Origin: Agaricus subrufescens
Taxonomy: Eukaryota > Basidiomycota > Agaricomycetes > Agaricales > Agaricaceae
Length of the DNA: 64,000 bases
Direction: 5' to 3'
NCBI GenBank assembly: GCA_029945375.1
Contig: CM057067.1
Coordinates: forward strand, 2,046,001-2,110,000
In this document: positions 15,431 through 35,144 of the stretch, piece by piece
Layout: every line of letters begins with the position of its first letter
Numbering within the stretch: position 1 is the first letter of the stretch
Position numbers and translations under genes: made by a program
Notes under the pieces: model-generated
What the model was told of the DNA's origin: nothing
Seen by the model: only the letters and a program-made list of their open reading frames with translations
The model's database searches: none

Positions 15431-15881
15431 AATGCAAAAGTAAAGGATTTTAACGAAATATGATAATTTATCTGAGCTCTGGTTTGGACTAAGGTTTGCC
15501 AATTCGTCTGTGCGATTCTGTGCGATTGCCGAGCCCCGTGGTTATAAGACCAAGGTTTAGCTTGATCACACGTCATTGATCCGAGACTGCCTCAAACTTT
15601 TCTTGGTTCTACCAGAGAATCGGCTACGACTTTCCTTCCCAGAAGTGGTTTTCTTCACTCCGGTGTGGCAAATGTCTATATACATCTAGTCCATTTAGTC
15701 ACGAAATTTGCCTCTTCCAGAATTCCAACTCTGGAAATTACTGAATCTTTCACGTCATCTCGTCAACAACTCAACAAAGCCTCCGTCCCTATCTTTGTGT
15801 TCTAGATTCACTTCCTGTCTACGTTAGTGGTCATTCGTAATTCTGGCTTATAGGAATTGGTGCCCGAGAACTGGTACGGAT
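15431..15881. other. Intergenic, left flank of the large element
   Basis: No gene seen. The last eight bases (15874-15881, GTACGGAT) are repeated at 35137-35144 on the other side of the terminal-inverted-repeat element. Confidence 0.5.
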
Positions 15882-15940
15882 CAGGGATGGCATTAACGGC
15901 GATAATCGCCGATGGAAGTTGTCATGAATCACGATAAACC
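15882..15940 (+). repeat. Left terminal inverted repeat
   Basis: Begins CAGGGATGGCATTAACGG and pairs in inverted orientation with 35079-35137. It is followed inward by AATCACGATTA-type motifs to about 16,075 (for example around 16,027 and 16,062). Confidence 0.7.
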
Positions 15941-16229
15941 CTGAATTAGCACGATTACGCCGATTACAAGACGAAAATCGCGATTATTCGAAAGTCTCTT
16001 TGATATCAATATTCGGTGTGCAAGAATAATCACGATTAAAATGTGATAGATGGAGATGATATCGTGATTATATTTAGCAGTGGTGACGTAGACAAAGAGT
16101 AGTCGTGTTTCGAGATTGCGATGCCGCCAAAAAAATTTGTATGCTAAATTTGCGCTGTAGACTATTGGTGCTCTATGTACATTGCAAAGGAGTTCAATTA
16201 GATTGATATAATATAAGAAGAATAAAGGT

Positions 16230-16688
16230 TTACGCACCGAGGTTGACCCAGAAACCAATTTTCAACCCAGCAAGAACGCCATGCGTCCACGAAACTCTAT
16301 CGAAAAACTTGACTTCGCACTCGTCAACCTCCGTATAGACACTGAGGACGCCGAATTTGCCGTCGGCACCATCGAATATCGCGATTTTGACCTGTGGAGC
16401 GACTATCCTCATCTGTTGACTGCCAGAGTTGACAGCGGCGTCATGGATGCTGGTTCTACGAAAAATAAATACGAAACGTTGTATTGTAGACGAAAAACAA
16501 AAGACTTACCCTATCAGACCTCGTAAAGGACCCTGCATACCGTTCGCGATGGCGTGACCTACAATGCCCGTCCATGCCAATCGAAGCGCGCGGCTGATAA
16601 TCGCCGGGATCGCGTCTTTTTCGAGGTTCCTTTTCTTCAGTGTGTCGTTATACATGTGGACCGGGAAGAGAGTTTGATTGAGAGACAT
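16230..16688 (-). CDS. Small two-exon protein of unknown function inside the large element
   Basis: Exon 1 is 16688-16510 and exon 2 is 16455-16230, with a 54-bp intron (16456-16509) carrying GTAAGT and TAG. About 134 residues from MSLNQTLFPVHM. The first part is helical and slightly hydrophobic (ISRALRLAWTGIVGHAI). The second part reads QVKIAIFDGADGKFGVLSVY and ends in a Gly/Trp-rich tail (GVLAGLKIGFWVNLGA). I do not recognise a family. It lies directly inside the left terminal region and is co-oriented with the KDZ transposase, so it may be cargo or an accessory gene of the element. Confidence 0.6.
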
Positions 16689-17144
16689 GATGGGGTAGTA
16701 TGGTGATGGTATGGTTGTAAGAGTGATGAATGAGGATGACTCTGATATTACTCACACCTTTCTCGCGCAGCACTTTATTCTCGCGCGGTCTTTTATCTCG
16801 CGCGGGACTCTACACATCTGAAATCAATCTAATAGATTAATCTGCGGCTCAAACTCGGAGTGTAAGTTCTTAACATTCTGAGGTCTTCTGATATTGTTCT
16901 CACCTTTGACCGTGACTGCTCCACTAAGCTCGCTACCAATTTATTTGAAACGCTTACGATGGGTAACGATAGACCTTTTCCTGCCTACTCAACTGCTGAA
17001 AAAATGTCAGTCTTGTGCATTCGAGTCCGAGCTCAACTCAGTATTAGTTCAGTGAACAAAAAACTTATATTGATTAGGGAATGATAGCATAAACGTTCTC
17101 TTAATGACATGATCTAGATATGCAGTAAAGTTAGTTGATTCTTC
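16689..17144. other. Intergenic between small gene and KDZ transposase 2
   Basis: Holds TCTCGCGCG-type repeats at about 16,760-16,805 upstream of the 16,688 start, plausibly promoter elements. Nothing else is recognisable. Confidence 0.4.
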
Positions 17145-20100
17145 TTACATATGTAGAGTAATGATCACGTACTGCTTCCATTGCGACAGACATTCGTCGG
17201 CATGTTTGGCGTACATGCTCGCCTGACGCCAAGCGTAGGCAGAATAACCCTTGACGTTGCCATTGAGAGTGGCCAAATTTGTCCAAACCTCGTTCATTCG
17301 CGCAAACGACTTGTGAGTCCGGTGAAATTCCTCTTCTAATATTTCGAGTTCTTCCTCAAGTCTCTCTACAGCCGCCTTTTCACGATACCACCACACACGC
17401 TCCACTAAAAAATTGTATCAATATTGGCATGATCATGATAATAATAAAAAATACATTCTAGTGCCCACTCGTTGGAAGACACACAATTCGGCCGGTAAGT
17501 CGACCAAAACCAAGGGTTTTGTTTACTTGAATCGCCCGTAATGTGGGGAATGAAAATATTCTTCCCCCATAGTTGATCCAATTCTAGCTTTTGAAGTCCT
17601 TCAGTCGCATTAGGACCCAGGCGTTCCAGAACTTCGAAGTGACGGCAATATTCTTGCCTGAGGTCAAGCATCCGAGACCGAATTTCGGAGACAACATATT
17701 GCGAGCGTGTAGCGATACTCTGGCTGCTGGGATTTTTCCGTTTCTCTGACATTGTGTGATTCATTTCGTGAATCACGTCCCTCAGATTAGAGAGGATATC
17801 GAAGACATGGTCCCGTCGGATAGCAACCTCAATTTCACTTGCTTGCGTGAGGTTGTATACCTGGCGCTCGTCTGCAGTGAACAAAGACGGTAACCAAAGT
17901 TTTGCAGTTTGAAGTATATCATCACTAGCGGATAGAAGATGCTTGAGGATGGGGAAAAGGACGAGTTGGTTCGCTCTCCATGATTGGAGGTCTATCAATT
18001 GATCACATTCAAGGTCTTTGTTGGGGACCTCTGCTTGACGATGAGCTACTCTGTGCAAATAGTAATTATATTTAGATTGCACATATTAATGGAATGACGT
18101 ACAGCAAAGATTCTATTTCAATACCACGCCGAATAAAGTTGATTAACTTGGCAGACGTAGTTCCATTATCTTCTTCGGTTAATGCCGGATTTACTTGCCG
18201 TTTCAACGCTGTTAACACCGGCATGAAGACGAAAAGATAAGGTAAGCTAAGAATTACTGACCTTTTCCTTGTACCTGATACAACTCAGATTTGGTGGCAT
18301 TAGCTTCGACTGCTTGCCATGTATCAATTAATTCTGTTGATATAGATGACGTCAGCCTATCAAAAGCGCTTTTTTTTTCCAAATAAGATTTCTGAGTGCG
18401 ACTGCGGCGGAGCGACAAATCAGAAGCTACAAGCCATTTCATCAACAAAAAGTAAAACAGGTGCAAAAAATCTCACATAATTGGCGTAATTTAGTAAAAT
18501 TATAGTGACCGTTAAAGCTGTCCAAGGTCTCCTGGCGGTGACCGGGATTTTGTTCCTTTGTGGATGCTGCGGCGTGATTCTGCTCGGACCAGGCACTTTC
18601 TATTGCCTCCCCATGCGTCATACCGGAGTGTGGTTCATAGACAAAGGAGTGGTTCACCTGACAGTGAGCGTTATGCCCATTGATATGCATCTTAGGTACA
18701 GAACCACGGATGCGATTAAGTAAGGGAACGAAACCAGATAAGTTAGTAGTAATGCGCTTAGGAAGGTTTATGTGATACTGGCACCATATGTCGTAACTGA
18801 GTGATATCCACCGTTGACTGAATCCTTCTGGACCCAGGGTGTGCATTAGAACGTAGTCGGTCTTGATATAACTTTGACTGGTAAGAAGAAAAAGACAGAC
18901 AGTACAGATAAAAGACTCACGCTTCTCCTTTATCAAGGTCAGCCATACCTTGTGGTAGGTAAAATCCGTGGCGGGCGCATTGTATCGCGATGACACCTGA
19001 TACCTCGGCGTCTTTGAACTTTGCCTGATCTTGATGCCTAACGGCCTTCAGCTTGGCGCAAAGAGATGTCTTGTGGTGGTGAGAGTTTGTCAGTGTTGAA
19101 TAACTATGTAGAATACTCACGTCGATATCGTTCTTCAGAGACTTAGTATAGTGCTGGTATTTACTCTCTTCTACAAAATATCCGTTACCAGCATTGAGTG
19201 GCTTGTCTAAGTGATCGTAATTTTTCTTCTTCCTCTGAAGGCGGAAATTGCCATCGGCTGAGAGAAAGAGCGTGTATTTATGTCTGGCGGAGAGTTCATG
19301 TGCTTTAGTAGACATTGTGCAAGGTACGACAGGGCTTACAAATCATCGTCTCGAGCTGTGTCAATTTCCCGCTTTTCGAGATTGAAACCAACTTCAGGAC
19401 ATGCGGGACACCTGAGGGCGAGGCTCCCCGCTCGTCTATGAGGTAGTATAGTGTCGATGTTGAAGTCTTGTCCTGAGCGGCGGCGGAGCATCAAGTAACG
19501 CCAAAGTCGCATTACAATCTTGAATTCTTTATACCGATACTACAGGTGGTCAATAATCGGCTACACATATGACTAAGAACTCACATGTGTTTCCTCGGGA
19601 AATGCTGCATTAGTAAAGTCTCAGAGAGTCTTACAATAATCATAGTTTGACGATTTCGTGTTGAGCGAATGCCGATCAAAATCATCAAGAACAGCAAAGG
19701 TGAATACAGTTTGCGGATGGTCGAGCGACGGAGGAAAAAGTTGATGTCGGATCAGTTGTAGTGCTTTGTCCTGCCGACGATACAAAGGCTTGCAATAGCA
19801 GTACAATATCCTGCATTCGTGAGTCCCGTTCGTGTGTACCACAACAAAAGTTTTGGGATCGTCGGTGTTATTTGGACAACGCCCGCCTTGATGGCCAAGA
19901 AATAAGACATAATCTAGATCGTTTAAGGCGGCCTTCTCGAAGAAATGGCCGGTCCACCTTTGAATGCGATGAAAGGGGTGATCGTGGTGGCGTTCCACTA
20001 TACATTGAGAACAAAGTGGCCTGTGAGTAAAACACTCGAGGCACCGGTAGATGGCCCTCCGTTCCTTGTTGATTTCACCTGATGACGAGGCTATACATGA

Positions 20101-20432
20101 CGGACACGGGTCGCCCACCGCTTCATCAGTCTCGAGAGCTAATATTTCGTTTTGAATTTCCTTTAGAATTTCAGATGAAAACGGTTCCAGTTTTGATGAG
20201 GCTCCCTGAAGTATGAATCAGCCTAGGATGAAACATACTGAAAGGAACTCGCCTGTGTTTTTGTGCGTTCTGACGCTTGAATACTAGGAGCCTCAATCAC
20301 GGGTATAAAACTAGCACTTTCTGTCGTAGGCCTGTATTCTTCATGCAAAATATTTATCGGCAAAGGCTTTGCAACCTTGAGAGGAACGATGCCAGGTATT
20401 GGGTTTCCCCGCTTGCGCTTGTGACCTGGCAT
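17145..20432 (-). CDS. KDZ-superfamily transposase 2 with CxC2-like cysteine cluster
   Basis: Start 20432 (MPGHKRKRGNPIPG, basic). The second coding block at 20118-19621 carries a CxC2-like cluster (CPSC, CLEC, CSQC, then HHDHPFH) and the family segment TFVVVHTNGTHECRILYCYC. Next come LSADGNFRLQRKKK (about 19260), ISLSYDIWCQYH (about 18790), MHINGHNAHCQVNHSF and GEAIESAWSEQN (about 18590), the three blocks that hold the acidic residues of the family. The C-terminal half (18466-17145) is helical and ends in WYREKAAVERLEEELEILEE and AYAWRQASMYAKHADEC, typical of KDZ proteins. Introns are short and all frames join, so it looks intact. It is the only transposase between the terminal inverted repeats at 15,882 and 35,136 and is the natural candidate for moving that element. 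Confidence 0.88.
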
Positions 20433-22252
20433 TGAGTTAGAGAGAAATCAGAAGTGTCGCACCGCCATCACTCAAATTGGGAATAACATCATAGAAAAAA
20501 ATTTTGATAGAGTTGTACACTCCTACATAACTTAGTTAACACGCTAGAGCTATGAAAATCTCACTTGCCATCATCAAATTTCATATCAAAGGTGTCCCTG
20601 TGCTGTAGTCTTATGAACCAAAAGTCGGGTGCTACACGAAACGTGAATCGTTGATAGAATGCACTAAAATGCGCCACTTACGAATGACAAGTGGAGCAAC
20701 CTCCGGGCCGTCTTGAGAGGTTGACCAAACATCGAAGGGATCAGGTTCTCCGACTTGATTGTCAGGGGGGCGGGGGGAGTTGACGATCTCTGACCAATAC
20801 AAACCTCTCGGAGTATCGAGCAATCATCCGCAATACCGTCAACTACATGCAGGGACATATCATTTTTGTCTTTCAATTCATACCACTTACGGACTTCCCT
20901 GAAGACAGATGTCAAAAAAAAAGTGTTGATCGGAAGTAGACTTTACACCCCAGATGCCAAAGCATGAAGATTAAGTTGCTAGCGACGATAGCTATAACGG
21001 TGTGAGCCCCGAAGCTCAACCTAGACCTCGCCGCGGCTGTTCACTGTTTTGATGATGCTGGACGTAGGTGAGGAAGACGCAAGGTCTTTTGATGGCATCT
21101 TCTTTGCCCTCCACTGCAGGTGAGGTCAGATTCTATCACGTGCAATTTCCTCTTCAGTGCCCGCCATCATCAGTGATAATCACCGGACTTCGAATTCTGG
21201 ATCTTGCCATCACGGCACCACTTAATGCCGGTAGTTTTGTCAATATTTGGTCGGCTCATGTGAAGCATTGTAACCGGCCGTGAAGCGGCGAGACTATTCA
21301 TTCAGTCTTGTAAAAATTTCACTTTCTCCTTTACACCTTAGCGCACCGGCTTCTACCGCACCGTGTAGGGTCTAAAATGTAGACAAACACCTTCATTTAA
21401 TATACAAAATCTTAATCCATATGTGCTCTATCCACATGGACTTTGGCGGGTTGAATATGGAAGCCCGAACGTTGATACACCCGCCCTGATGCTAGCCAGA
21501 TACCAGAACATGCCAATGCAAATAGAAAGTAGTAGTCCATCAGTTCGTAACAGAAGTGAGGCCCTGAAAGACAGTCAATAATGAACTGTCACCGAGGACA
21601 ATGTCATTGACAGTTTTCTATTGATTAGAATTGACGATTCAATAAGTCTACTTGTTCGGTAAGTTTTCCCTGCTGATTATAATCAAAAGGGCCCACCCAA
21701 CTCAGCTCGAGAGGTCTAGTAATTTGATTTCGTGGCATGTGGTATAAGGTTCGCTACCATGTCATTGCGTAAACTGACGAAAAATTTTCTTGATAGCAAT
21801 TGAGGCGTCATTGCCCTAAGTTGTTTTGGTAAAAAAGTATCTCAAGCCGATTGGAGCTCGCAAGGTATTGAATTGTTTTCGATATGTCGATGGTTTGACT
21901 TGGTTAATACCATTCAAGAATAAGTATGTTCATTTTTTTTTGGCTCCAACTTATTTTGACAGATTCTATTCCCTGTACACATCATAATGACAAGCAACTG
22001 ATCTGAGCCAACATCTTCACTTTACAAAACCAAAAAAGTTCCGAATATCTGTATCAATTCCCATTTGTATCTTAGGATAACCAGTATTCAATTGTGACAC
22101 TCTTCAAATGGGAAAGCTAAATAACTACTTCCAAAAGTATGGAACAGAGAGCTGAGCAAGTAGCTATAGGTAGATAAAAACATAGACTATGTAGCGTAAA
22201 ATGGAGACAATTCAAAACCGTATAGTAAAAAGAGATATTCATATCGTCACTA
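20433..22252. other. Long intergenic stretch, no gene supported
   Basis: Small open frames at 20632-20915 (minus) and 21068-21283 (plus) show no recognisable motif and no coherent splicing. The rest is AT-rich. It presumably contains the promoter of KDZ transposase 2. Confidence 0.4.
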
Positions 22253-23311
22253 TTAGTCCATAATGACAATCGGGTCATCGAGAGAATCACCACTCCCTCC
22301 CTCCCCGGACAATCTCAAAACCTTACGAAGTGGCTCGGACGCATTGACCTCGATTGTGTCGCATTTCCTCTTCTTCCCCTCAGTTGATTCGATTGTTTGG
22401 ATGCTTTGATCGGCGTACGAGAGTTGTTGCAATTGGGTGAAATCAGGTGAGAGAACTCGAGCCGGTGATGGCGCCTTGACTTTATTTCGGCGCCAGCTAT
22501 CACGACAGACTTCGTCTAGGGACATAATGTCAACGGGGTCTTCCAGATTTTCGATGAGAAAGCTAAGCCCGGGGCAATCAGTATTGGCAATCCTCCTTTC
22601 CTTCACGATAAGGTAATGGTTAGGGGTGTATTGACGCCAGAATGCTGTGGGTGGTAGGTTGACAAAGCCCCCTTTCATTGTATCATATACCTTGAGAGGG
22701 TGGGTAATGATACGGGTCTGGTCAAGAAAAAAGAAGCTGTTGATGGGACAGAAGAATCCATTGCTCGCAGGAATGTCAAAGACGTAGGGATCCTGTCCAG
22801 CCTAGTATAATCAGCGTCTGGAACAGGATATAATCAACGAAGTATGTACCTCGTCAAACAAATAGATTCGACCAGGAACTGGGTCTTGTTCCGGGGACAA
22901 AGAACGTTGTTCAGCAGCAGGAGAAGATGGAAGAGATGAGTCTGGAAGGGATGACAAGCTAGTCCTCCCCGGGGAGGATTGCAACTGCTTGTGGTATGCA
23001 AAAAATTCGTCCATATCAGGGAGGTCAGGGGAAGAACGAAGAGAGGGGGGGAAGGATGTACTGTCATCACTGGGAATCGCAGGTGATTCAGTATCACCCT
23101 CAGCAGCAGCAAGATGAGCGTTCTCGACTGCGACCAAGGTGGCTGAGTCACAACAAACGGGAAGTGCCATCTCGCTTCCAAGGAGGATGTAGTGCATCGT
23201 AAGGGGTAGGCTCTGATTCTCAAAACTTCTATCGAGACCGATAATATAGTACGGCCGAGGAATCTTTTTTGTACGAATAATGTTTATGACTACGCCAACC
23301 TTTCTGACCAA
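22253..23311 (-). CDS. Hypothetical two-exon protein, cargo of the large element
   Basis: Exon 1 is 23311-22850 and exon 2 is 22801-22253, with a 48-bp intron (22802-22849) joining YLFDEV-type sequence to AGQDPYVFDIPASNGFF in frame. About 336 residues from the first ATG; internal ATGs at 23197 and 23170 are alternatives. The N-terminal third has MHYILLGSEMALPV, the middle is Ser/Pro-rich and acidic, and the second exon has an aromatic-rich domain (FFCPINSFFFLDQTRII). The extreme C-terminus, DDPIVIMD, resembles a SUMO-interacting motif, which is only a sequence resemblance. I do not recognise the family. It is divergent from the disrupted gene that starts at 23540. Confidence 0.6.
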
Positions 23312-23566
23312 GCTAACCTTAGAATGATATGACCGTCAACCCTGCACCCAAAACTTTTTTCAGAATGATCAGCGATAAATATGGGCCTCAGCTAGAAATC
23401 TCTTCAGACTGATCGACAGTAAATCTCGGCCTAACTTATAAGTCTCGGACCGTGTATGAGGGAATTGAATCAAAACGAATACAGGTGAGCAGGCTTTAGT
23501 AACTTATATTAATCTGCCATTGCGTGAAGCTGTAACCCCATGCTGCGCTCTAAGTCGACCCAAGAC

Positions 23567-23858
23567 TGTTACGATCTATTTCCGTTATCGTCCCCTGACC
23601 CAGGACCATATGCTACCGCTCCGCATCCATATGCTCGTCTTACCTATCTTGTATACTTGTTCTCACCGTTAGTCAGACACCTCGGGCATACTTACTCAGC
23701 CCGCTTTCTACTTCTATTATTAGGTAGTCGACTCCTCTATAAGTAGCGTAGATATACTCTGTATTTCCTTACGCTTTACCAACTCGCTGTATTCCCTTAT
23801 CGCTCTCAAGTCTTTGCCTTAAGTTGCAACCTGAGCTAATCGCTATAAGGTCGTAACA
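23567..23858 (+). repeat. 5' LTR of the chromovirus
   Basis: 292 bp, TG...CA ends, identical to 30117-30408 except one base. It contains a TATA box (TATAAG, 23738-23743). Confidence 0.95.
23738..23781 (+). promoter_or_regulatory. LTR promoter and predicted transcript 5' end
   Basis: TATAAG at 23738 is 33 bp upstream of 23771, where the 11-mer ACGCTTTACCA begins. That 11-mer is the exact reverse complement of the primer-binding site at 23861-23871. If transcription starts at about 23771, the RNA 5' end could fold back to prime reverse transcription. Confidence 0.6.
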
Positions 23859-23860
23859 TT

Positions 23861-23871
23861 TGGTAAAGCGT
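23861..23871 (+). other. Primer-binding site (probable self-priming)
   Basis: TGGTAAAGCGT lies two bases inside the 5' LTR. It starts with TGG, as tRNA-primed sites do, but it is perfectly complementary to LTR sequence 23771-23781. This favours the self-priming mechanism known for Tf1 of fission yeast. A tRNA with a matching 3' end is the alternative. Confidence 0.6.
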
Positions 23872-23937
23872 CGTAAAAGCTCACCTTGCAGAAAGACCTC
23901 TAGTCATTGAGGCAGGAAACCGCGACAACCCCAGTAT

Positions 23938-25065
23938 ATGAGCACAGACGACACAGAACTATTCGGAATCGATTTTGAAACAGTTTTCTTCGAAGGACAC
24001 AGAAACGGAAACAGATTTGAAACCCTCAGACACGAGGAAGACCAAGAAACAGAACCATCTGAAAACGACGAACAGGAACCAGAAGAACCAGACCCAGAGC
24101 AAATACCGAAGAACACACCACTCGACGAAGACCTAAACCGACTAGCAAAAGAACTCGAAGAACTAGAACTAAGAGAAATGGCGACCAACAACACCGAGAC
24201 CAAATCCACCAACGCAATCAACCACAAGGATGTCATGGAACCAGGATTTTTTCATGGAGATAGGAACAAGTTTAACGACTGGTGGAGAGGAATGGAAATT
24301 TTCCTCAAATTTAGCAAATACGAAGACGCAGATTCGAAGATACTCCTTGTCACCAACCGCCTGAGAGGAGAAATCCCAGGATGGTTCGCCAAACAATGGG
24401 AGGATAAGATCATCAAAGGAGATGATACCGCAGACTGGAAAGTTTTTGCCGAAGAAATCGTGGACGCCTTTTCCCCTGGAAACGAACAGCAGATCGCGAA
24501 AGATAAGATCGAATCCTTTAAACAAGGAAACCTTCACACCAACGATTTCCTTGTCAAATTCACCGCCCTCGTTCATCAATCTAAATCTAGCGAAGATCAC
24601 GCGCTCTACCTCCTGAAACAACACACCAGATCAGATGTAATTCACACCATTTTGGGTTACCCCCCAAACGCCATCCCCACCTCCCTCAAAGGATGGATCG
24701 CCGCCATCGGATCTGTCGGGAAAGGTTGGGAAGACACAGAAAGACGACGAAACGACCACCGCACCGCTACCGGAGTCACTTACGGAGGGAGCGGACAACC
24801 CATGGAAATTGGAGCTAAGAAGTTAGAATGGGATGTCAACGGAAAACCCAAATGCCTCAAATGCGGCAAATTTGGCCACATAAAGAAAGAATGCCGAAAC
24901 CAAGGATTCAGATCCAACATCGAATGCTACAATTGTGGCAAACCGGGTCATATTGCTAAACTCTGCCGAAGCCCCAAGAAGCAAACCAAGATTCGTGCCA
25001 TCACCACTGGAGAAGAAGGAACAGCCGAAGAAACTCAACAGGATTTTCCCAAAGGTTTGGAGTAG
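23938..25065 (+). CDS. gag: Chromovirus Gag polyprotein with two CCHC zinc knuckles
   Basis: 375 residues from MSTDDTELFGID. Residues 1-80 are acidic. The retrotransposon capsid-like region follows at about 100-260 (FNDWWRGMEIFLKF, PGWFAKQWED, FKQGNLHTNDFLVKF). Two zinc knuckles are present, CLKCGKFGHIKKEC at 306-319 and CYNCGKPGHIAKLC at 330-343, which bind genomic RNA. The pol frame is -1 relative to gag and is open from about 24,960, so the two frames overlap by about 105 nt. I see no clear slippery heptamer; pol may be reached by frameshifting or by reinitiation at 25098. Confidence 0.95.
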   Translation: MSTDDTELFGIDFETVFFEGHRNGNRFETLRHEEDQETEPSENDEQEPEEPDPEQIPKNTPLDEDLNRLAKELEELELREMATNNTETKSTNAINHKDVMEPGFFHGDRNKFNDWWRGMEIFLKFSKYEDADSKILLVTNRLRGEIPGWFAKQWEDKIIKGDDTADWKVFAEEIVDAFSPGNEQQIAKDKIESFKQGNLHTNDFLVKFTALVHQSKSSEDHALYLLKQHTRSDVIHTILGYPPNAIPTSLKGWIAAIGSVGKGWEDTERRRNDHRTATGVTYGGSGQPMEIGAKKLEWDVNGKPKCLKCGKFGHIKKECRNQGFRSNIECYNCGKPGHIAKLCRSPKKQTKIRAITTGEEGTAEETQQDFPKGLE

Positions 25066-25097
25066 GCACGAACTCACGAACCAATGTACCTAGCCGT

Positions 25098-28000
25098 ATG
25101 AGAAATCGATATGTTTGTCCTCAGAAACGACTAGGAGTGCAGGAGTTAATACTCAAACCCGAAATCACCAAACCTAATGGAGAAACATTCCAAGCCAAAA
25201 CTATGCTCGACTCTGGATGCACCCATACTTGCATCGACAAACGAACGGTCTATAAACAGAAAATCCCTACTCACAAACTCGACCATCCCATCCAGGCGAC
25301 CAATGCGGACGGAACCCCTAGCGGAAAAGAACCCATCACCAAATTCGTCAATCTGGACCTAAACATAGAAGGACACCAGGAAACCATCGATGCGGTAGTA
25401 GCCGAATTAGACTCAGCAGATATTTTTATAGGACACGATTGGTTAACCAAACATAACCCGGAAATCGATTGGAACCGAGGAACTGTAACCTTCTCGAGAT
25501 GCCCACCCGAGTGCTCGATCAAACACACCAATTTCTCACTACCGGAACACCTACGACGCCTCCAAACCAAATGGGAAGACTTCGAAGAGGAAAAAGAACC
25601 CGACCCGACCAACCCCCTCGACTTACCGGAGTACATGAGACCGTACACCCACCTCTTCAACAAAAAGAATTTTGACAAATTACCAAAACGAACCCAATGG
25701 GATCACGAGGTCAACCTACTGCCAGACGCCCCCAACGAAATCGACGCGAAGGTTTACGAAATGACTCCAAAAGAAGAAATCGAACTCAACAAATTCCTGG
25801 ATGAAAACCTCGCCACTAAACGCATCCGACCGTCCAAAAGTCCCTACGCGGCCCCATGCTTCTTTGTACCCAAAAAAGACGGTTCACTAAGGTTGTGCCA
25901 AGATTATCGCAAACTCAACACGGTTACCATAAAAGACAAAACCCCCCTACCTCTAATCAGCGAAGTCATCGGGAAATTAAAACACGCCAAGTACTTCAAC
26001 AAACTGGACATCATCTGGGGTTACAACAACGTACGAATTAAGGAGGGAGACGAATGGAAAGGCGCCATCCTCACCAACAGAGGACTTTTCGAACCAACGG
26101 TCATGTTCTTCGGAATGTGCAACTCGCCAGCCACCTTCTCTCGCTGGATGACCACCATCTTCAGAGAAATGATCCAAGACGGTTCACTAGTCAACTACAT
26201 TGACGACTTCGCCATTCCTGCCGACTCTATCCCCGAACTGGAAGAACGGACATTACGATTCCTAAAAATAGCAGACGAGAACAACCTATGCTTCAAACGG
26301 ACCAAATGCGAGTTTAATGCAACCAAAATCTCGATGCTTGGAACGGTCATAGGCGACGGTCAAGCAAGCATGGAGACCGAAAAAGTCGAATCAGTTCGAA
26401 ACTGGAAAACGCCGACCTGCGTAAAAGACATCGAACGGTTTATCGGTTTCGCAAATTTCTACCGACGTTTTATTCAGGACTTCAGCACTCTCGCTGCACC
26501 GCTCAATGCCTTGAAAGGGGGTAAAACCCCAAAACCCTGGAAATGGACCACCGAGGAACAAAACGCCTTCGAAGCCATCAAAACTCCCATCACCAATGAA
26601 CCCGTCCTAGCCCTACCAGACAACGAAGGAAAATTCAGACTCGAAACCGATGCATCCAACGTAGGAATCGGAGCAGTCCTATCCCAAGAACAAGAAGGAA
26701 AATGGCACCCGGTCGCCTTCATGTCCAAAGCCCTCACCGACGCAGAAAAGAACTACGAAATCTACGACAAAGAACTTCTTGCCATTGTCAAAGCAATCAA
26801 GAACTGGAGACACTACCTACTTGACGCCAAACATCAATTCAAAATCTGGACCGACCACGAAAATCTCAAATACTTCCGCGAACCACAAAAACTAAATGCC
26901 CGCCAAGCCCGATGGTACCTCATGCTCCAAGAATACGACTACTTACTCCGACACATTCCTGGCAAAACCAATGTCAAGGCCGATATCCTATCCAGACTTT
27001 TCCGACACGAAAACCCCGAGGAAGAAACCCAAATCGAGATGTTCAAAGATCGCATTATCCTACGGACCTTATCCGAAATTCCCACCTCACTAAAAACCAC
27101 CATGTTCCTAAATAGAAATTTCTCGATCTCCGCGAACCCCGACATCCTGAAACAAATTAGTAACTCCAAACATCAAGAAAACCGTGTCATTCAAGAAAAG
27201 AATAAGAGGCCGGACCAATTCTGGGAAGAGAACGGTATAATCTACCGAAACGGGAAGATCTATGTACCGGATGAACCCAAACTTCGAGAATCCATACTTT
27301 CGGACCACCACGACCCACCTGATATTGGACACCCCGGATCTTACCGCATGCTCGAGCTTGTAAAACGAACCTTCTGGTGGCCCACAATCAAGACGGACGT
27401 CAAAAGATTCGTAAAGGGATGTACCGAATGCCAGAAAAACAAGATCAACCGACAACCCGGCCACACACCCCTCAAACCCCTACCCATCCCCGAAGCACCT
27501 TGGCAGGAAATATCCATAGATATGATTGGCCCGCTACCCAGATCCGAGGACCACGACGCCATACTTGTAATCGTCGACCGCTTCTCCAAAATGATCCACC
27601 TCATCCCCACCGAAACTGCTCTCACGTCAAGACAACTGGCCGAGATCTACAAGAAAGACATCTGGCGCATTCACGGAATACCCAAACGCATCATTAGCGA
27701 CAGAGGCCCCCAGTTCGCCTCCAAATTCATGAAAGAATTATGCTCCGCCCTAGGAATAGAACGAAATCTGTCTACTGCCTACCACCCCCAAACCGATGGC
27801 CAAACGGAGAGGATTAATCAAGAAGTCGAATCCTACCTGCGAAACTTCGTTAACTACAAACAAAACGATTGGGCGAAATGGCTCCCCACTGCGGAATTCC
27901 AATATAACGACAAGACCCACGCCGCAACTAAGCAAACCCCATTCTTCCTCACTTACGGTATCCACCCTTGGAAGGGAAACCTGACGGTTAACTCGGATAA

Positions 28001-28553
28001 CCCCCTGGCCAACGACTTCACCGCGGAACTAGAAAAGACCCGAAACGAAGCACGGGCAGCTCTAGAAGAATATAACTCCACCATGTCCAAACACGGTAAC
28101 CTGAAACGGCAAAAAAACCCCTTGTCGAAAGGAGATCTAGTCTTCCTGGAAGCAACTAACATACGATCAAATCGCCCCTCTAGAAAATTCGACAACAAAC
28201 GGTATGGACCCTTTGAAATTCTGGAACCCATTGGAGAAACCTCTTTCCGTCTAAAATTACCTGAAACTTGGGCTATACACGACGTCTTCCACTCTTCTCT
28301 GCTCACCAAATTCAACGAACCCGAGTTCACTTGTCAAAAGACTCCACCTCCACCCCCCCCAGATATTATTAACAACGAAGAGGAATATGAAGTAGAGGAA
28401 ATCCGTGGACATAGGAAGAAAGGCCGAGGAACTCAATACCTGGTACACTGGAAAGGATATGATAACTCCGAGGATACGTGGCAATCCGCAGCCGACCTTG
28501 AGAATGCACAGGAACTCTTATCCGAATATAGAAAACTCAACAACCTCCTATGA
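25098..28553 (+). CDS. pol: Chromovirus Pol polyprotein (PR-RT-RH-IN-chromodomain)
   Basis: 1,151 residues counted from the first ATG. Aspartic protease DSG at 38-40. Reverse transcriptase about 240-420 with YIDD at 367-370 and FFGMCNSPATFSRW before it. RNase H about 510-630 (ETDAS, YDKELLAIVKA, TDHENL). Integrase zinc finger about 737-778 (two His, then CTEC). Integrase catalytic triad D808, D868, E904 (35 residues between the last two). Chromodomain about 1095-1146 (YLVHWKGYDNSEDTW), expected to direct integration to particular chromatin. No stops or frameshifts; it is intact and probably competent. It ends in TGA, which overlaps the ATG of the next ORF. Confidence 0.96.
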   Translation: MRNRYVCPQKRLGVQELILKPEITKPNGETFQAKTMLDSGCTHTCIDKRTVYKQKIPTHKLDHPIQATNADGTPSGKEPITKFVNLDLNIEGHQETIDAVVAELDSADIFIGHDWLTKHNPEIDWNRGTVTFSRCPPECSIKHTNFSLPEHLRRLQTKWEDFEEEKEPDPTNPLDLPEYMRPYTHLFNKKNFDKLPKRTQWDHEVNLLPDAPNEIDAKVYEMTPKEEIELNKFLDENLATKRIRPSKSPYAAPCFFVPKKDGSLRLCQDYRKLNTVTIKDKTPLPLISEVIGKLKHAKYFNKLDIIWGYNNVRIKEGDEWKGAILTNRGLFEPTVMFFGMCNSPATFSRWMTTIFREMIQDGSLVNYIDDFAIPADSIPELEERTLRFLKIADENNLCFKRTKCEFNATKISMLGTVIGDGQASMETEKVESVRNWKTPTCVKDIERFIGFANFYRRFIQDFSTLAAPLNALKGGKTPKPWKWTTEEQNAFEAIKTPITNEPVLALPDNEGKFRLETDASNVGIGAVLSQEQEGKWHPVAFMSKALTDAEKNYEIYDKELLAIVKAIKNWRHYLLDAKHQFKIWTDHENLKYFREPQKLNARQARWYLMLQEYDYLLRHIPGKTNVKADILSRLFRHENPEEETQIEMFKDRIILRTLSEIPTSLKTTMFLNRNFSISANPDILKQISNSKHQENRVIQEKNKRPDQFWEENGIIYRNGKIYVPDEPKLRESILSDHHDPPDIGHPGSYRMLELVKRTFWWPTIKTDVKRFVKGCTECQKNKINRQPGHTPLKPLPIPEAPWQEISIDMIGPLPRSEDHDAILVIVDRFSKMIHLIPTETALTSRQLAEIYKKDIWRIHGIPKRIISDRGPQFASKFMKELCSALGIERNLSTAYHPQTDGQTERINQEVESYLRNFVNYKQNDWAKWLPTAEFQYNDKTHAATKQTPFFLTYGIHPWKGNLTVNSDNPLANDFTAELEKTRNEARAALEEYNSTMSKHGNLKRQKNPLSKGDLVFLEATNIRSNRPSRKFDNKRYGPFEILEPIGETSFRLKLPETWAIHDVFHSSLLTKFNEPEFTCQKTPPPPPPDIINNEEEYEVEEIRGHRKKGRGTQYLVHWKGYDNSEDTWQSAADLENAQELLSEYRKLNNLL

Positions 28554-29023
28554 GTATAAAAGGAAACCTGCCACACTACCACCGGTATAGCATCGTCTAT
28601 TGGTTCGAAGAAGACATCATGAGCACCCAGAACACCGCCGAAACCCTCACCACCCCCGAACAAGAGGCCTACCACAACCTCATCATCGACTCTTTCCGAA
28701 GCTCCGCCAAACGAGAGCTTATCAAAATCTATAGCGCAGTAACGGACGTGGACAACCGTTACGCTCACACCTACGTCCCACTTATCTACGACCAACCAAA
28801 AGGAGTAAACCCAGCGAACGAAGAAGAAAAAGACCACATGGTCAAGGTCATGAGGAAGGAGAGGCAGTTGATCAAGAAGATCATAAGGAAGTTGCAGATG
28901 ATGGAAGACGAGTTGAAAGATCTCACCGAGGAGATAAATCCGAACGCCCATGGATGGGCCGCAAATGGAACATGGGGAGACGGATGGGAAGCACCGGCAG
29001 AAGAAAACAATCAGCAACAGTAG
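28550..29023 (+). CDS. Extra ORF 3 of the chromovirus, function unknown
   Basis: The open frame starts at 28550, where ATG overlaps the pol stop (ATGA), giving 157 residues. A more natural start is M24 at 28619 (MSTQNTAETLTTPEQEAY), giving 134 residues and lying downstream of a TATA box. The protein is helical and highly charged (KVMRKERQLIKKIIRKLQ), perhaps a coiled coil, with a Gly/Trp-rich tail (HGWAANGTWGDGWEAP). It has no signal peptide or membrane segment, so it is not envelope-like. I do not recognise a family. Intact LTRs and clean frames argue that it is maintained. Confidence 0.75.
   Translation: MSIKGNLPHYHRYSIVYWFEEDIMSTQNTAETLTTPEQEAYHNLIIDSFRSSAKRELIKIYSAVTDVDNRYAHTYVPLIYDQPKGVNPANEEEKDHMVKVMRKERQLIKKIIRKLQMMEDELKDLTEEINPNAHGWAANGTWGDGWEAPAEENNQQQ
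28555..28561 (+). promoter_or_regulatory. TATA box upstream of extra ORF 3
   Basis: TATAAAA immediately after the pol stop and 58 bp before the methionine at 28619. The spacing fits an internal promoter for a short subgenomic transcript. Confidence 0.45.
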
Positions 29024-29051
29024 AAGTTGCCTAATAGGGAGGAAGGAATAA

Positions 29052-29058
29052 TATAAAA
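29052..29058 (+). promoter_or_regulatory. TATA box upstream of extra ORF 4
   Basis: TATAAAA followed by a CT-rich stretch and then the ATG at 29153. It is the second TATA-plus-ORF arrangement after pol. Confidence 0.45.
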
Positions 29059-29152
29059 CCAGACCGTTTCTCTCTTTTCCTTTCTCATCCCAAATCTGCC
29101 CAACATTGCGCTCACTGCTAAATACGCCCCTCTGCTTGAACTCTTAGCCAGC

Positions 29153-30076
29153 ATGAACCCCAGCACCAACCCGACCCTACGCACCATCGCCATCCCCGTT
29201 GATCAGGCCATGCACGCCGAATACATCCAACGCAGACACTCCACCCTCTCCCGACGCCGCTACCTCCTTAGAATCTTGCACGCCATGGCACAACTCCGAG
29301 AAATAGGAGCCTCCATCATCCAACTAAACAACAACGCTCAGAACATCGCAGGAACGGTTATCTCCCCCATCAGGCTGTGTGGGGGAGACGAAGGAATCGT
29401 TGCTGAACACTTCAACAAAATCCTCGCCGAATTAAACAAAGTCACCAGCACCCACATCGAGTTCAACGCCCACTCTATTGCCTGTCACTCAGCCAGAATG
29501 CTCGACGTCTTAGATCGAGTTGGATCGGCAGAAGAACTAGCTGCCGCAGATGCAATCTGTAAACTCTACCGACTGGAACCCGAAACCAGACCCAACACTC
29601 CGCCAGCCGAAGTCATACCCATCCCTGACCCCACCCCCCTATTTATCCCTAAGCGGGAAAACGATCCCATGGACGAGGACTCCAACAAAGAAAACAAACC
29701 CCCGGGTTTGGACCGCGTCTCCAACATTCACTCCCCTGAGCTAGCCGAAGAAGCCGATTGCCTTCACCGTTATCTGAACTTCATGCCACCCGCCACCGTA
29801 CCTACCGAAATCAAACCACCCACCACCTATGCTTTCGCCCACAACAATAACCGATACAAAACCCCCGAAGAAAGAACCGCATACTGGAACGTTATCCTCA
29901 CCGTCCTGTTAATGAAGAAAGGAAAGGACGAAACCTTCAAAGGTTTGCCTGCACGCATTATCGTAGGAGGAAGGGACAACGCCCCCCACTTCATTGGTTT
30001 CAACGAGAAAACCGACCGATGGGTTATGGCCGACACCAAGAGGAAACTCTTGAACAATCTCTTTGCGCACGTCTAA
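29153..30076 (+). CDS. Extra ORF 4 of the chromovirus, function unknown
   Basis: 307 residues from MNPSTNPTLRTIAIP. The N-terminal half is helical (YLLRILHAMAQLREIGASII; HIEFNAHSIACHSARML). The middle is a Pro-rich linker (about 145-190), and the C-terminal part has ERTAYWNVILTVLLMKKGKD and ARIIVGGRDNAPHFIGF. No zinc finger, nuclease motif, signal peptide or clear membrane segment is visible. It ends 40 bp before the 3' LTR. Its position matches that of env in retroviruses but the sequence does not. It may be an element-encoded accessory or a captured host gene. Confidence 0.75.
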   Translation: MNPSTNPTLRTIAIPVDQAMHAEYIQRRHSTLSRRRYLLRILHAMAQLREIGASIIQLNNNAQNIAGTVISPIRLCGGDEGIVAEHFNKILAELNKVTSTHIEFNAHSIACHSARMLDVLDRVGSAEELAAADAICKLYRLEPETRPNTPPAEVIPIPDPTPLFIPKRENDPMDEDSNKENKPPGLDRVSNIHSPELAEEADCLHRYLNFMPPATVPTEIKPPTTYAFAHNNNRYKTPEERTAYWNVILTVLLMKKGKDETFKGLPARIIVGGRDNAPHFIGFNEKTDRWVMADTKRKLLNNLFAHV

Positions 30077-30116
30077 TGTTGCTTCGATCGGAATCTGAAG
30101 CCTGAACGGAGGGTGA

Positions 30117-30408
30117 TGTTACGATCTATTTCCGTTATCGTCCCCTGACCCAGGACCATATGCTACCGCTCCGCATCCATATGCTCGTCTTACCTATCTT
30201 GTATACTTGTTCTCACCGTTAGTCAGACACCTCGGGCATACTTACTCAGCCCGCTTTCTACTTCTATTATTAGGTAGTCGACTCCTCTATAAGTAGCGTA
30301 GATATACTCTGTATTTCCTTACGCTTTACCAACTTGCTGTATTCCCTTATCGCTCTCAAGTCTTTGCCTTAAGTTGCAACCTGAGCTAATCGCTATAAGG
30401 TCGTAACA
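30117..30408 (+). repeat. 3' LTR of the chromovirus
   Basis: 292 bp, one mismatch to the 5' LTR. A purine-rich stretch (CGGAGGGTGA) directly upstream is the likely plus-strand primer. Confidence 0.95.
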
Positions 30409-31360
30409 AAGACAGCGTCAGCGTACTTGTACTTCGGAAGGAGAATGAGGAGAAAATCCGCAAGTTTCTGCGCGATCGAGTCCCCCCCCCCTCCGACTGG
30501 CTCTCTCTGCCCGAAACATCCATTAAGATCAAAGAGGCTATGCACTAGCCAAACTGATCCTTCTTTGACCCATGCTGGACGGTGGTTTTCGTTCGTGAGT
30601 TACTTATATTCTGTCCTGTCCTTTGTATAACCTATGTTTCTAGTGCAAGAAGTGTGACCGGGTATATTTCTCTATGCGATCCATAAACGTCCAAGACCTC
30701 ATTGCAAACAATGAGGAGTTCCGCGCTCTGATTGAGAAACATCGGTCTCTGTCGCCAAAGCAGAGGGCAAGCGTGTCAGTCGCGGTACAGGTCGCCGAGA
30801 ATCATCCGACCGTGAAGACTTTTGTCTTTTGGACTAAGGTATGAGCATTGTCTTCCTCCGGTGATAATAATGACTGAATTCAGCTATTATAGTCCGGGCA
30901 ATCCCCAGCTCAGATCCCATTCTTATGCGACCTTGACAAGCCTTTGCGACTTTTTGATTATCGAGTGTTGTTGAAACAAAAAGGCATCAAGTACGGTCAA
31001 GAGGTTGACGTATTCGATCCCTCTGCCAAAATATGGGTGCCCCTCAAGTGGGGCGCAGAATATTCATGTGGTGAACGTAAAGATATATTTCTGAAGTATG
31101 TTGGAGTAGATGTTACCAATTTTGGAATGTATGGGTCCTAGTCAGTAGTAGTTTGAACTTACCTATTCGTTGTTTCATGCAAGCCAAATACGGAGTTCCC
31201 CAAGGTGGCAGGTAGTGTTTTGCGATGGCTACTGTCAATCCTTTGGTAAGACTAGCTGTCAAACGTTTCAAATTTTTCCAATCCACGATAAATCAAGGTT
31301 TTGCCGGCCAGATATGGAGTAAATTTGGGCAACAAAATCAAGCCTATAGATCTCCAAATC

Positions 31361-31738
31361 GATGAGATTTCCGAAGCACGATGCGGGCAACCCACAGAAA
31401 ACTTTTAAAGTCACGGTGGTCTCCGATTTCTACGCGATGTCCGAAGTCAAACGCTAGGAACTATTGGTACCGCCAGGTTTGCCCACAGTCGGATATGGAC
31501 AGGTGAATGAAGATTTAAAGATCTATGGCCGTGTAACGTACGATAATTAGCGATGAGATTTCCGAAGCACGATGCGGGCTGCCCACAGAGAAACTTTGAA
31601 GTCACGGTGGTCTCCGATTTCTACGCGATGTCCGAAGCCAAACGCTAGGAACTATTGGTACCGCCAGGTTCGCCCACAGTCGGATACGGGCAGGTGAATG
31701 AAGATTTAAAGATCTATGGCCGTGTAACGTACGATAAT
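31361..31738 (+). repeat. Two tandem copies of a 191-bp segment
   Basis: 31361-31548 and 31552-31738 differ at only a few positions. Both carry the same in-frame TAG after a protein-like reading (SDFYAMSE), so the lesion predates the duplication. It lies in the degraded cargo gene. Confidence 0.85.
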
Positions 31739-32099
31739 GAAGGATGTGGAATTAGTGACCGTGTTATGGGTGAACTAGATCTAAGATACCAATTTTTGGG
31801 AAGTAGTATACGCAAACTTAATAATTCTGCCAGTTTCATAGTCATCTCTGGTATATGCTAGGGTCCGAAGTGAGAAATTTTGAGTAATTGGTGGCTATAG
31901 TTTCGCACTAATCCCTATAATAGAACACGAACGGCGACTTTCTCTGGACTGACTGTCAAGACTTAAGCCGGAAGTGGATTTCAAGGCCCCCCACTTTCTC
32001 CTTGAACTGCCACCACCCCATTCCTGTGCTTTGACCTTAACTTTTCACAACGTTTCCGTTGAGGCGTTCCTACTTCTCTGAATCTTCCTCTTCTCTACC

Positions 32100-34204
32100 A
32101 TGGGTAGAAAGAACTCTAATGGTTTGGCAGCTCTCAGTCGCGCCGACAAGGACGTGCTCGCGGAGCTTCTAGATGAGTGTCTTGAAACGCGTAAGGCTAT
32201 TGATTCAAATCCAGAGACAACCTCATGGTCTACCATCACTGCATGGGTTGATGGCATTACTATCCCTCATTTTCATAAGACGCGTCGAACAACTCCAAAT
32301 GAAAAAGCTGTAAGTAATATTCAAAACTTGGGTATTATTGTACGCTTACAATTTGGGTAGCAAATTCAAAACTGGTACAAAAACCAATGTACCAAGCATA
32401 ATGTCGCCACTCGACGGAAAAATACGTGGGGGAGCGCCGGAATGCGCCAAGTTAGCTCTGGAGGCAAGCGTCCCTGTGTCAGGGACATGGTTGCCAACCA
32501 ATACAAGGGTGATATTTCTCTCTCAGCGAAGGCAGCCGAAGGCGATGAATCTTCTCCTTATATATCGAGGTGGAATATGGCAGTCACAAACAGAGTACAA
32601 GGGCTATCTGTGGAGGAACATGGAGCTTTTCAAGCCAGAGTCAACGAAGAGATTGTAAGGAGGACCGGCCCTCCTACACAAGCGGAAGTACTTGCGTACG
32701 TTTAATTATTTTTTATCTACTTGTTCAAGCTAAAAGAATCACACAGCGCACAAGGTGATTTGAGCAGTAGGATTAGCGAAACTGTTCGCCACCTTCTGGG
32801 ATGGGACCGAGGGCAATACGGTGATGCCATTGTTTTTATGACGATGGCTTATCGTGATCACTCAAACCAAATAAGGGAAGAAAAGTGAGTCACACTTACT
32901 TCGAAAGGATACTGCTGAGAACATCTCTAGATTTTTTGTCAGCAATGATAACAATTTCATCGCACATTGCAATCTCTTCAATGAGCGCTATGATGCCCAA
33001 TTGAGTGGCTACCTGGCGACTGTGGCCCACATAGCTCTCCCTTGTAAGCTAACGTCTATTCGGGTGATCCGAACCCTACTTCTCACCGTCTTTTGTCCTA
33101 GTGCATGAAGTATCAAATAATGGGCCCCATGTTAATGGCGCTCCTTCAACACAAACGGACAAGTGAGAACCTTTTTTTGCTTCCTTAACGAAGTCGCTAA
33201 TTGTGGTTTTTACAGCACAGGAGCAGCCTCAAACAAGGCTTCTATGCCGACCTCTATCACCAGTCAACAGGCACCTGTCCCTCCTTCCATCTTTTGCCCC
33301 GGGCTGGTTCCCAACCTCGCCTCTCTCCCTAGGGCAGTAGATGTGCCGGGGTCTAACCTTATCTTCGGACCGTCGACTCCTTACATTGATCAACAGGCAC
33401 CTTTCCCTTCTCCCTTCTATCTGCCTGAGCCAGTTCCGGACCCCGAGCCCGAGCCCGAGCCCGCCCCTCTCTCTGAGGCAGTAACCCTGCCGGTGCCTAC
33501 CCTTATCCTCGAACCCAACCCTGAGCGTGTTCTCACCCTTGGGCCAAACCCCGAACCTGCCCCTCCCTCTGAGCTGGAGCCTATACCCATTTTTGAGCAC
33601 GCCCCATCACCTCTGCCCGTACTGACTTTTGAGCGTGCCCCATTACCTCTGCCCATACCTCTACAGGCCTCCAAACCCGCTTTTGTATGTGCCCCCTCCT
33701 CTGCACCAGCACCTCCGCTGGTATCTATCTCCGCTCTCGAGCAAGTCTCCAACCCTGAGCACGTGCGCAGCCCTGCACTTGAAACCACACGGTTCAATGA
33801 CCTGAACCCGAGTTCTAACTCCGATAACAGCAGGGACGGCCCTTCCCTGGCTCTACCAGCCAATCAAGATACCAGCCCAACTTCACCACCAACCTCGTCA
33901 ACTGATGCTCATGCCGACTCACATGAAAGCTTATACCTTTCAAAAGGAACCCAGAAGCTACGTCAAAAGCGTGGAGCATCGACCACCCAGCCGATTCGGG
34001 CCTCAGCACGCTCAAAAAAGCCACCGAAGCAAGCAGGGCCCTTGACAGATAAGAATCAGGTACCTCGTTCAAAGTGAGTCCACACATTATTTTCTGCAAC
34101 TAGTCTCATTGTTTCATTGTAGGGTTCCTGTCAGTAAGCGTTGGGCCTACGTGTCAGATGAAGATGCCACCCCCCCGCCCCAGAAGAAGTCTCGCCGCCG
34201 CTGA
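32100..34204 (+). CDS. Agaricomycete-family protein with long Pro-rich region, cargo of the large element
   Basis: Start ATG 32100 (MGRKNSNGLAALSRADKD). Exon 1 is 32100-32309 and exon 2 starts at 32361 (QIQNWYKNQCTKHNVATRRK). Four further introns, at about 32699-32746, 32887-32930, 33043-33101 and 33161-33216, join in frame to the Pro-rich exon (to about 34073). The last exon ends SKRWAYVSDEDA and KKSRRR, stop 34202-34204. The NWYKNQ segment and the later VEEHGAFQARVNEE stretch resemble unnamed mushroom proteins, the latter faintly HMG-box-like. Residues encoded at 33,280-33,720 are a low-complexity Pro/Glu/Leu region (PDPEPEPEPAP). A basic tail could be a nuclear localisation signal. Function unknown; nuclear DNA-binding is a guess. 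Confidence 0.7.
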
Positions 34205-34229
34205 GCAATATCTACTCTTGTGCCATCCA

Positions 34230-35136
34230 TTAATAATTATCTAAGGTATGATTATTTAATTCAAAGGATTTATTCGTCAGTTGAAGTGTGAAGTAGTCCT
34301 AAAATCACTGATCACTGGATAAATGCGATTATTGAAATCCCACCAATCACATAACTCACGATTATCACTCGTGGTAATCATGATTATCCCGACTGATCAC
34401 TGGAGTTCAGAGTCTGGATAATCACGATTCCTGTAAGGCTATTGACAACACCACCCCCAATAATCGTGATTATCGAGCCTGACTACTAACTTCATAAGTT
34501 CACCAATAATCACGATTATCCAGCCCGACTACTGAGTTCACCAATAATCATGATTATCGCAAGTTTGCTGATACCACAACTTGTGATAATCGTGATTATC
34601 GCAAGTTTGCTGATACCACAACTTACCTGGAGCTACGGTAATCATGATTATCATAAATTTGCTGACACCACAAATTGTGATTATCGTGATTATCGTAAGT
34701 TTGCTGACACCACAACTTACCCGGAGCTAGGATAATCATGATTACCATAAATAAATGCATCGATACAACAACTTACGATAATCGTGATTGTCGTAAATCT
34801 CTCTGCAAAAACACTTTAATCGTGATTATAAAATTGCGAAACAAGAACACCGAAAACCTACCCTGTAGCTCTATAAGCACAATAATCACGATTATTTGCA
34901 TATAGTACAAACTGTGACAAACATGCAATAAACATTGTTGAAATCACGATTACTCCTTGTAGTACATACCCACATACACTATAACAAACTGTCTCAATCA
35001 CGATTATTATAATATATCTTACTTTGTCCCAACCATGACAACCACGTAGCTAATAATCATGATAACACGATTATTTACCATTATCGTGATTCGTGACAAG
35101 TTCCACTACTGATTAATCGCCGTTAATGCCACCGAT
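34230..35136. repeat. Right subterminal repeat array and terminal inverted repeat
   Basis: About 0.9 kb AT-rich DNA in which the near-palindrome AATCRTGATTATC occurs about 20 times. In several places it sits in units of about 40 bp, for example GATTATCGCAAGTTTGCTGA at about 34,551 and 34,593. It ends in the inverted repeat tip (GCCGTTAATGCC, about 35,119-35,130). Such arrays at element ends usually bind transposase, which is inference here. Confidence 0.75.
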
Positions 35137-35144
35137 GTACGGAT

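Follow-up and report, generated by a model that had tools for sequence, protein, structure and literature searches.

A recently mobile KDZ transposon of Agaricus subrufescens with a conserved gene module that includes an Spt5-like gene

Results

Structure of the locus

A transposon of the KDZ superfamily, interrupted by a later Ty3/gypsy insertion, was delimited at positions 15882-35137 (19256 bp) of a 64,000-nucleotide stretch of the Agaricus subrufescens genome, here called the window (C11:2046001-2110000); without the gypsy element it measured about 12.4 kb. It was a single mobile unit that made 7-bp target site duplications (TSDs), had moved recently and carried a conserved gene module. 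Boundaries were set by reading both ends and then by comparison with other copies in the genome, for which 44.65 Mb in 44 contigs were searched. A first-pass annotation had placed the element at 15882-35136; the left edge stood, while the right edge was corrected by one base to 35137 from other copies and an empty site. The termini were CA...TG, and the ends formed imperfect terminal inverted repeats (TIRs) of 56 bp at left (15882-15937, + strand, starting CAGGGATGGCATTAACGGCGAT) and 57 bp at right (35081-35137, - strand, reading inward CATCGGTGGCATTAACGGCGAT), in agreement with the earlier pairing of the ends over about 57 bp. Aligned as inverted repeats, the 60-base ends scored 35, a value to be set against 20,000 random pairs of segments separated by 500 bp or more, none of which reached 25; an earlier random run that allowed overlapping pairs had given a best score of 38 among 5,000. 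The outermost 7 bases differed between the two ends. All six elements compared had a left end starting CAGGGA and a right end starting CATCGGT, and therefore the asymmetry was inherited and was not the result of decay. The TSD, TACGGAT, occupied 15875-15881 and 35138-35144, and agreed with other copies and the empty site. The flank GTACGGAT had been taken for an 8-bp duplication; it was indeed shared, but it comprised the 7-bp TSD and a chance G, since the G before it is native sequence at the left edge and at the right edge is the element's final base.

Subterminal repeats of the type AATCRYGATT, which are putative transposase binding sites, were found at 15927-16071 on the left and as an array at 34375-35094 on the right. 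All 21 such motifs in the window element lay within its first 500 or last 1000 bp, and the same end zones held 20/20, 10/11, 13/14, 10/11 and 13/14 of the motifs in five other elements. The motif was absent from the 10.9 kb of interior tested and occurred once in the 44.7 kb of the window outside the element.

The transposase gene was multi-exon (17145-20432, - strand), with a CxC2 cysteine cluster in 19621-20217 (E-value 1.3e-26) and a KDZ domain in 18442-19342. Two exons spanned positions 1-97 and 93-217 of the KDZ transposase profile PF18758 (E-values 2e-17 and 6e-31); these domain matches confirmed the KDZ gene reported inside the element by the first-pass annotation. Candidate catalytic D, D and E residues were identified by eye only. 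On either side of it lay gene A (16230-16688, - strand; exons 16510-16688 and 16230-16455; 134 residues), gene C (22253-23197, - strand; exons 22850-23197 and 22253-22801; 298 residues), gene D (23540-31141, + strand; three exons, with a Cys/His-rich N-terminal half) and gene E (32100-34204, + strand; seven exons, 598 residues, with a conserved N-terminal region of 300 residues, a Pro-rich middle and a basic C-terminus). Exon models of A and C were protein-guided, and the start of D was defined from gypsy-free copies; in the gypsy-free copy on C9 gene D encoded 216 residues. These four genes and the gypsy insertion had all been recognised before; a fifth accessory gene had been missed, which was a remnant of an Spt5-like gene, S, comprising the 3' part only with two in-frame stops (20589-21062, - strand).

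The Ty3/gypsy retrotransposon (23567-30408, + strand, 6842 bp) was inserted in gene D, and was identified by its long terminal repeats (23567-23858 and 30117-30408, 292 bp each and 100% identical) and by its own TSD, AAGAC (23562-23566 and 30409-30413). It broke gene D after codon 9, and the window copy of D also contained one extra C in a C-run. A length of about 12.4 kb had been predicted for the element before this insertion, and two gypsy-free copies in the genome each measured 12380 bp. Between genes D and E there was a 191-bp tandem duplication (31360-31741), which was also present in gypsy-free copies.

Copies and empty sites

The genome contained at least eight matches to the left end and at least nine to the right end. 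All eight listed left ends were paired with a correctly oriented right end, and the ninth right end, on C5, had its left partner at 1597238; in these matches partners were 12.4-28.4 kb apart. The first-pass annotation had considered that each end might belong to its own short non-autonomous element; no such case occurred among the 8 left-end and 9 right-end matches listed.

Three families could be distinguished. The two 12380-bp copies (C9:623333-635712 and C6:902237-914616) had 5 differences between them and were 98.6-99.0% identical to the window copy; 40 kb of their flanks was common to both at 99.87% identity, as in alleles or a recent segmental duplicate, and they were therefore counted as one insertion. 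The second family, 14.1 kb long, was represented by C7:2017895-2031983, C7:2987900-3001988, C9:418832-432996 and C2:3518292-3532424, where the two C7 copies had the same flanks and were counted once. Another copy of this family, on C36 at about 106.4-134.8 kb, measured approximately 28.4 kb, an enlargement that apparently reflects extra sequence inserted between D and E (matches at 124.1 and 108.4 kb). The third family comprised C5:1597238-1613161 (15924 bp). Exact 7-bp TSDs and CA...TG termini were present at all seven independent insertions for which both ends were found (TACGGAT, CCAGACA, GGGAGAA, AGGAAGT, ACCTGCT, TAAGGGA and ACAGGAT). Further copies with the same ends and exact target duplications, proposed earlier as a check on the element, thus do exist.

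The C7 copies were part of a larger structure, in that C7:2012001-2032000 and C7:2987883-3007882 formed a 20-kb inverted repeat on one contig with 99.86% identity, transposon included. Either the duplication is genuine, or the assembly has joined two haplotypes. Two loci on C8, at 784-795 and 804-815 kb, had a layout resembling the C7 inverted pair.

When the flanks of six insertions were joined (C36 was left out), each junction was spanned by a homologous stretch without interruption, the identities being 429/440 for the window site (on C10), 416/433 for the C9/C6 insertion (on C24), 434/440 for C9b (on C6), 427/440 for C7 (on C4), 365/432 at C2 and 362/440 at C5. In all six the target was present once, exactly in three (window, C9b and C7) and with 1-2 changes in the others. 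Several of these matches are repeats or members of gene families and not alleles; the joined flank of C7 alone had more than 10 uninterrupted matches. For the window insertion the empty site on C10 contained TACGGAT once, as the first-pass annotation had anticipated for an unoccupied locus. Four of five probes from the window flanks also matched C10 colinearly at 96-100% identity (14400-14700 at C10:1014661-1014962, 99%; 42600-42900 at C10:1012299-1012598, 96%; 47300-47600 at C10:999876-1000176, 100%; 52000-52300 at C10:995170-995470, 100%), with the caveats that two probes matched weaker C10 neighbours as well and that spacing varied in places; the fifth probe, 12000-12300, had no colinear partner on C10. 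Occupied and empty sites are both present in one genome. From this one assembly we infer that the C10 segment is probably the other haplotype and the window insertion heterozygous.

The gene module across the genome

The transposase gave at least 94 matches in 65 loci; for the accessory genes there were at least 20 matches to A, 24 to C, 12 to D and 24 to E, all of these counts being lower bounds. An accessory match was assigned to a module where it fell within 40 kb of its KDZ locus. This identified 22 KDZ loci with accessory genes, always arranged and oriented alike (A-, KDZ-, C-, D+, E+), at which A was detected 19 times, C 21, D 12 and E 22. Of 80 accessory matches, 77 lay at these 22 loci; by gene, the proportion accompanied by a KDZ locus was 24/24 for C, 12/12 for D, 22/24 for E and 19/20 for A. 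The earlier idea that the element had spread host gene families was not upheld, given that 77 of 80 matches sat with KDZ in a single order.

Comparison of the window copy with the second family gave ratios of nonsynonymous to synonymous divergence (dN/dS) of 0.29 for A, 0.21 for C, 0.25 for D and 0.39 for E (first 297 codons), with dS values of 0.89, 0.86, 0.81 and 0.73 respectively. For the transposase (840 codons), dN was 0.098 and dS 0.746. All between-family pairs computed for A, C, D and E produced dN/dS of 0.10-0.40, and gene S 0.14-0.25, from protein-guided alignments, which can lower dN somewhat; between families, every one of the five accessory genes had dN/dS far below 1. As dS in the accessory genes was similar to that in the transposase, these genes appear to have diverged together with it, mostly under constraint. 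Exon structures were also conserved across families, with one intron in A, one in C, two in D and six in E, in matching phases; five of the six introns of E fell in the first 300 residues and were modelled in all seven copies. On this sequence evidence, A, C, D and E appear to belong to the transposon as accessory genes rather than to be captured host genes.

A homology search with gene C gave two matches. Its protein was 43% identical over the whole length to a predicted protein of Agaricus bisporus, with start and length in agreement, and 66% identical to a metagenome protein. Profile matches of C and D in the PDB were dropped (best E-values 5.1 and 0.34). No homologue of gene E was found among 4499, and then 7996, scored candidates, a negative of little weight as the collection was apparently poor in fungi. 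The end of gene C (22253-22300) contained a conserved hydrophobic-acidic stretch, DPIVIMD and variants, which we take to resemble a SUMO-interacting motif; similarly, the Cys/His pattern of gene D presumably recalls GRF-type zinc fingers.

The Spt5-like gene

Approximately 1.8 kb between KDZ and gene C was present in the second family and missing from the window family, and this segment, together with the sequence around it, held gene S. The predicted protein contained an Spt5-NGN domain (30.3 bits against a Pfam cut-off of 22.4), followed by KOW motifs that were each individually below cut-off. It was colinear with SPT5 chains in the PDB (E-value 8.1e-15 for the single sequence and 2.7e-15 for the profile, to human SPT5), the NGN and KOW region aligning with SPT5 residues 182-498. 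The arrangement of NGN and then KOW is that of cellular SPT5; S differs in being encoded by a transposon, diverged and under its own selection. A distant host origin of S is likely. The gene occurred in all eight sister elements tested, a figure for those sisters and not for all 22 module loci: C7a, where it was first found, C9b, C2, C36, C5, C6b, C8:787900-791900 and C3:3596300-3599300, the last being partial. Within the second family, dN/dS was 0.10, 0.45 and 0.66, values based on few changes.

The window copy and its C9 sister retained only the 3' remnant of S with in-frame stops. As the deletion is common to both copies although they sit at different sites, the window family must have moved after S was lost; S would accordingly seem to be dispensable or supplied in trans. 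The plant protein KTF1 is Spt5-like. In DNA methylation it acts together with Pol V (PMC10229537), and Spt5 of S. pombe restrains heterochromatin (PMC10659198). By analogy, these roles make an effect of S on silencing plausible. No transposon-encoded Spt5-like protein was found in the literature searched, a search to which the founding KDZ paper and Repbase did not belong.

Discussion

Relationship to known KDZ elements

The element was filed under the KDZ superfamily and is called Kyakuja-like from its sequence features, a label that leaves aside placement of the transposase in the Kyakuja clade. This choice was made because TSD and termini match Kyakuja, but TIRs are present and a TET/JBP gene is absent. 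Kyakuja elements of Agaricomycetes share with it a KDZ transposase, 7-bp TSDs, 5'-CA...TG-3' termini and an Agaricomycete host (PMC12730594); the two Kyakuja type families are described as lacking TIRs and encoding an AG-type TET/JBP dioxygenase (Kojima 2025, PMC12730594), whereas the present element has imperfect TIRs of 56/57 bp and the accessory set A, S, C, D and E. The A. subrufescens genome had three equally scoring Tet_JBP matches (C2:3846077, C7:2235142 and C14:163711), none of them beside a KDZ match. Zisupton and Dileera belong to the same superfamily and differ in having 8-bp TSDs in place of 7 bp (PMC12730594). The Cryptococcus elements KDZ1-3 are also KDZ elements with TIRs, 9.2-11 kb long, and differ in TIRs of 139-241 bp, TSDs of 4-8 bp and a CxC1 domain, with no accessory set mentioned in the excerpts (PMC12810828). 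Within the Agaricales, intact KDZ transposases of Pleurotus ostreatus are preceded by CxC2, as here (PMC7641404), and TIR motifs are described for Marasmius oreades (PMC8290104); the portions of both papers that were available name no accessory gene module for these elements. In the portions consulted, PMC9674265 and PMC7473861 contributed nothing decisive, and neither did PMC13289920, in which a search by terms found nothing. No KDZ element with this gene set was found in the literature searched, which covered neither the founding KDZ paper nor Repbase.

Interpretation of the element

The first-pass reading of a gene-carrying KDZ transposon was supported by the paired ends, the TSDs, the additional copies and the empty site. 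We interpret it as a cut-and-paste transposon of the KDZ superfamily, Kyakuja-like, from a lineage with a fixed accessory set in the order A-KDZ-S-C-D-E (probability about 0.92). The transposase would bind the subterminal AATCRYGATT repeats, cut at CA/TG and join with a 7-bp stagger, and the accessory proteins would serve the element itself. S would most likely sustain transcription of the element by RNA polymerase II, or else counter the element's silencing. In the window family most of S was deleted, the family moved afterwards, and the gypsy insertion that broke D then struck the window copy.

A number of observations weigh against this interpretation. Although the KDZ exons are clear, the full splice model of the transposase is unsolved. 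Three accessory-like matches lay away from KDZ, all weak and single; gene D was detected at only 12 of the 22 module loci, and 43 of the 65 KDZ loci had no detected module gene, which means that KDZ transposition in general does not require the module. Among the 22 loci, at least two pairs have flanks in common, each pair deriving from one insertion, so that separate insertions are fewer than 22; ends were examined at 10 of the 22, and at C6:505501-521500 no recognisable ends were found. No intact S gene accompanied the window family when it moved. Close pairs within families gave dN/dS of 0.07-0.66 on few changes (0.07-0.54 without S). By gene, stops or frameshifts affected A in C2; C in C2, C6b and the C9 sister copy; D in C5 and the window copy; and E in C9b and C2, with further shifts in E at its very end in the C9 sister copy and once in C9b; the full-length models of E in C5 and C6b were frameshifted too, while their first 300 residues alone were not. 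Individual copies may therefore be decaying. Genes A (two sister proteins), C and D had no Pfam match at E-values up to 10, and the single match of E was weak, below cut-off (E-value 0.13) and dropped, leaving E without a convincing domain. The structures predicted for C and for the core of S had a mean predicted local distance difference test score (pLDDT) of 36 and 32, and were unusable for a fold search.

Three other explanations were considered, of which the most credible, if improbable, is a composite origin, whereby the accessory genes came from another multi-gene mobile element that fused anciently with KDZ, and serve the needs of that ancestor and not KDZ transposition. The 43 KDZ loci without any accessory gene, the 10 of 22 loci at which D was not detected and the continued movement of the window family after it lost S would all suit this origin; set against them are a gene order that was held across families with dS about 1, and the fact that, among the matches listed, KDZ was present wherever at least two module genes were. 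It is very unlikely that the accessory genes are passengers, that is, host genes picked up by chance and spread by a KDZ element. Transposons with gene cargo are known, and the kinship of S with cellular SPT5 is clear, but the near-complete association of C, D, E and A with KDZ in one order and orientation tells against chance capture, and the similarity of their dS to that of the transposase indicates long joint travel.

The remaining explanation, that the two ends are unrelated, each from a short non-autonomous element, and paired by accident, has almost no probability left. It could draw on the imperfect ends and their differing outermost 7 bases, but every listed end match has a partner 12.4-28.4 kb away in the right orientation, and the TSDs are exact and accompanied by empty sites; chance pairing was ruled out by the paired copies, the random-pair test and the empty site together.

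The reading as a KDZ transposon with its own accessory genes might be extended, tentatively and with less likelihood of being right than of being wrong, to a KDZ clade with a private gene-expression kit, in which S would be the counterpart of the TET/JBP dioxygenases in other Kyakuja elements and A, C, D and E further parts. S would then retune RNA polymerase II or silencing partners, rather than erase DNA marks, and the element would thereby escape silencing. The Spt5-like gene in the sister copies suggests that such transposons bring tools that influence their own transcription, and it extends the range of host-type functions carried by cut-and-paste transposons to an Spt5-like transcription factor. 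For four orphan gene families, a likely role as accessory genes in a defined and recently active transposon emerges, and with it a natural context. With families that have S, a family that lacks it, and both occupied and empty sites, the element offers a test case for the transcription and silencing of transposons in Agaricomycetes.

Other features of the window

A second KDZ transposase with a CxC2 cluster was present at 921-2448 (- strand), to which no module gene was assigned. To the right of the element, a copia-type retrotransposon with a gag match (36118-41631, - strand) appeared to split a protein-kinase gene, of which one part was at 42509-43261 and the end, placed by eye, at 35478-35720. 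The copia-type element seems to be absent from the C10 segment, where the corresponding interval measured about 0.7 kb, against 7.2 kb in the window.

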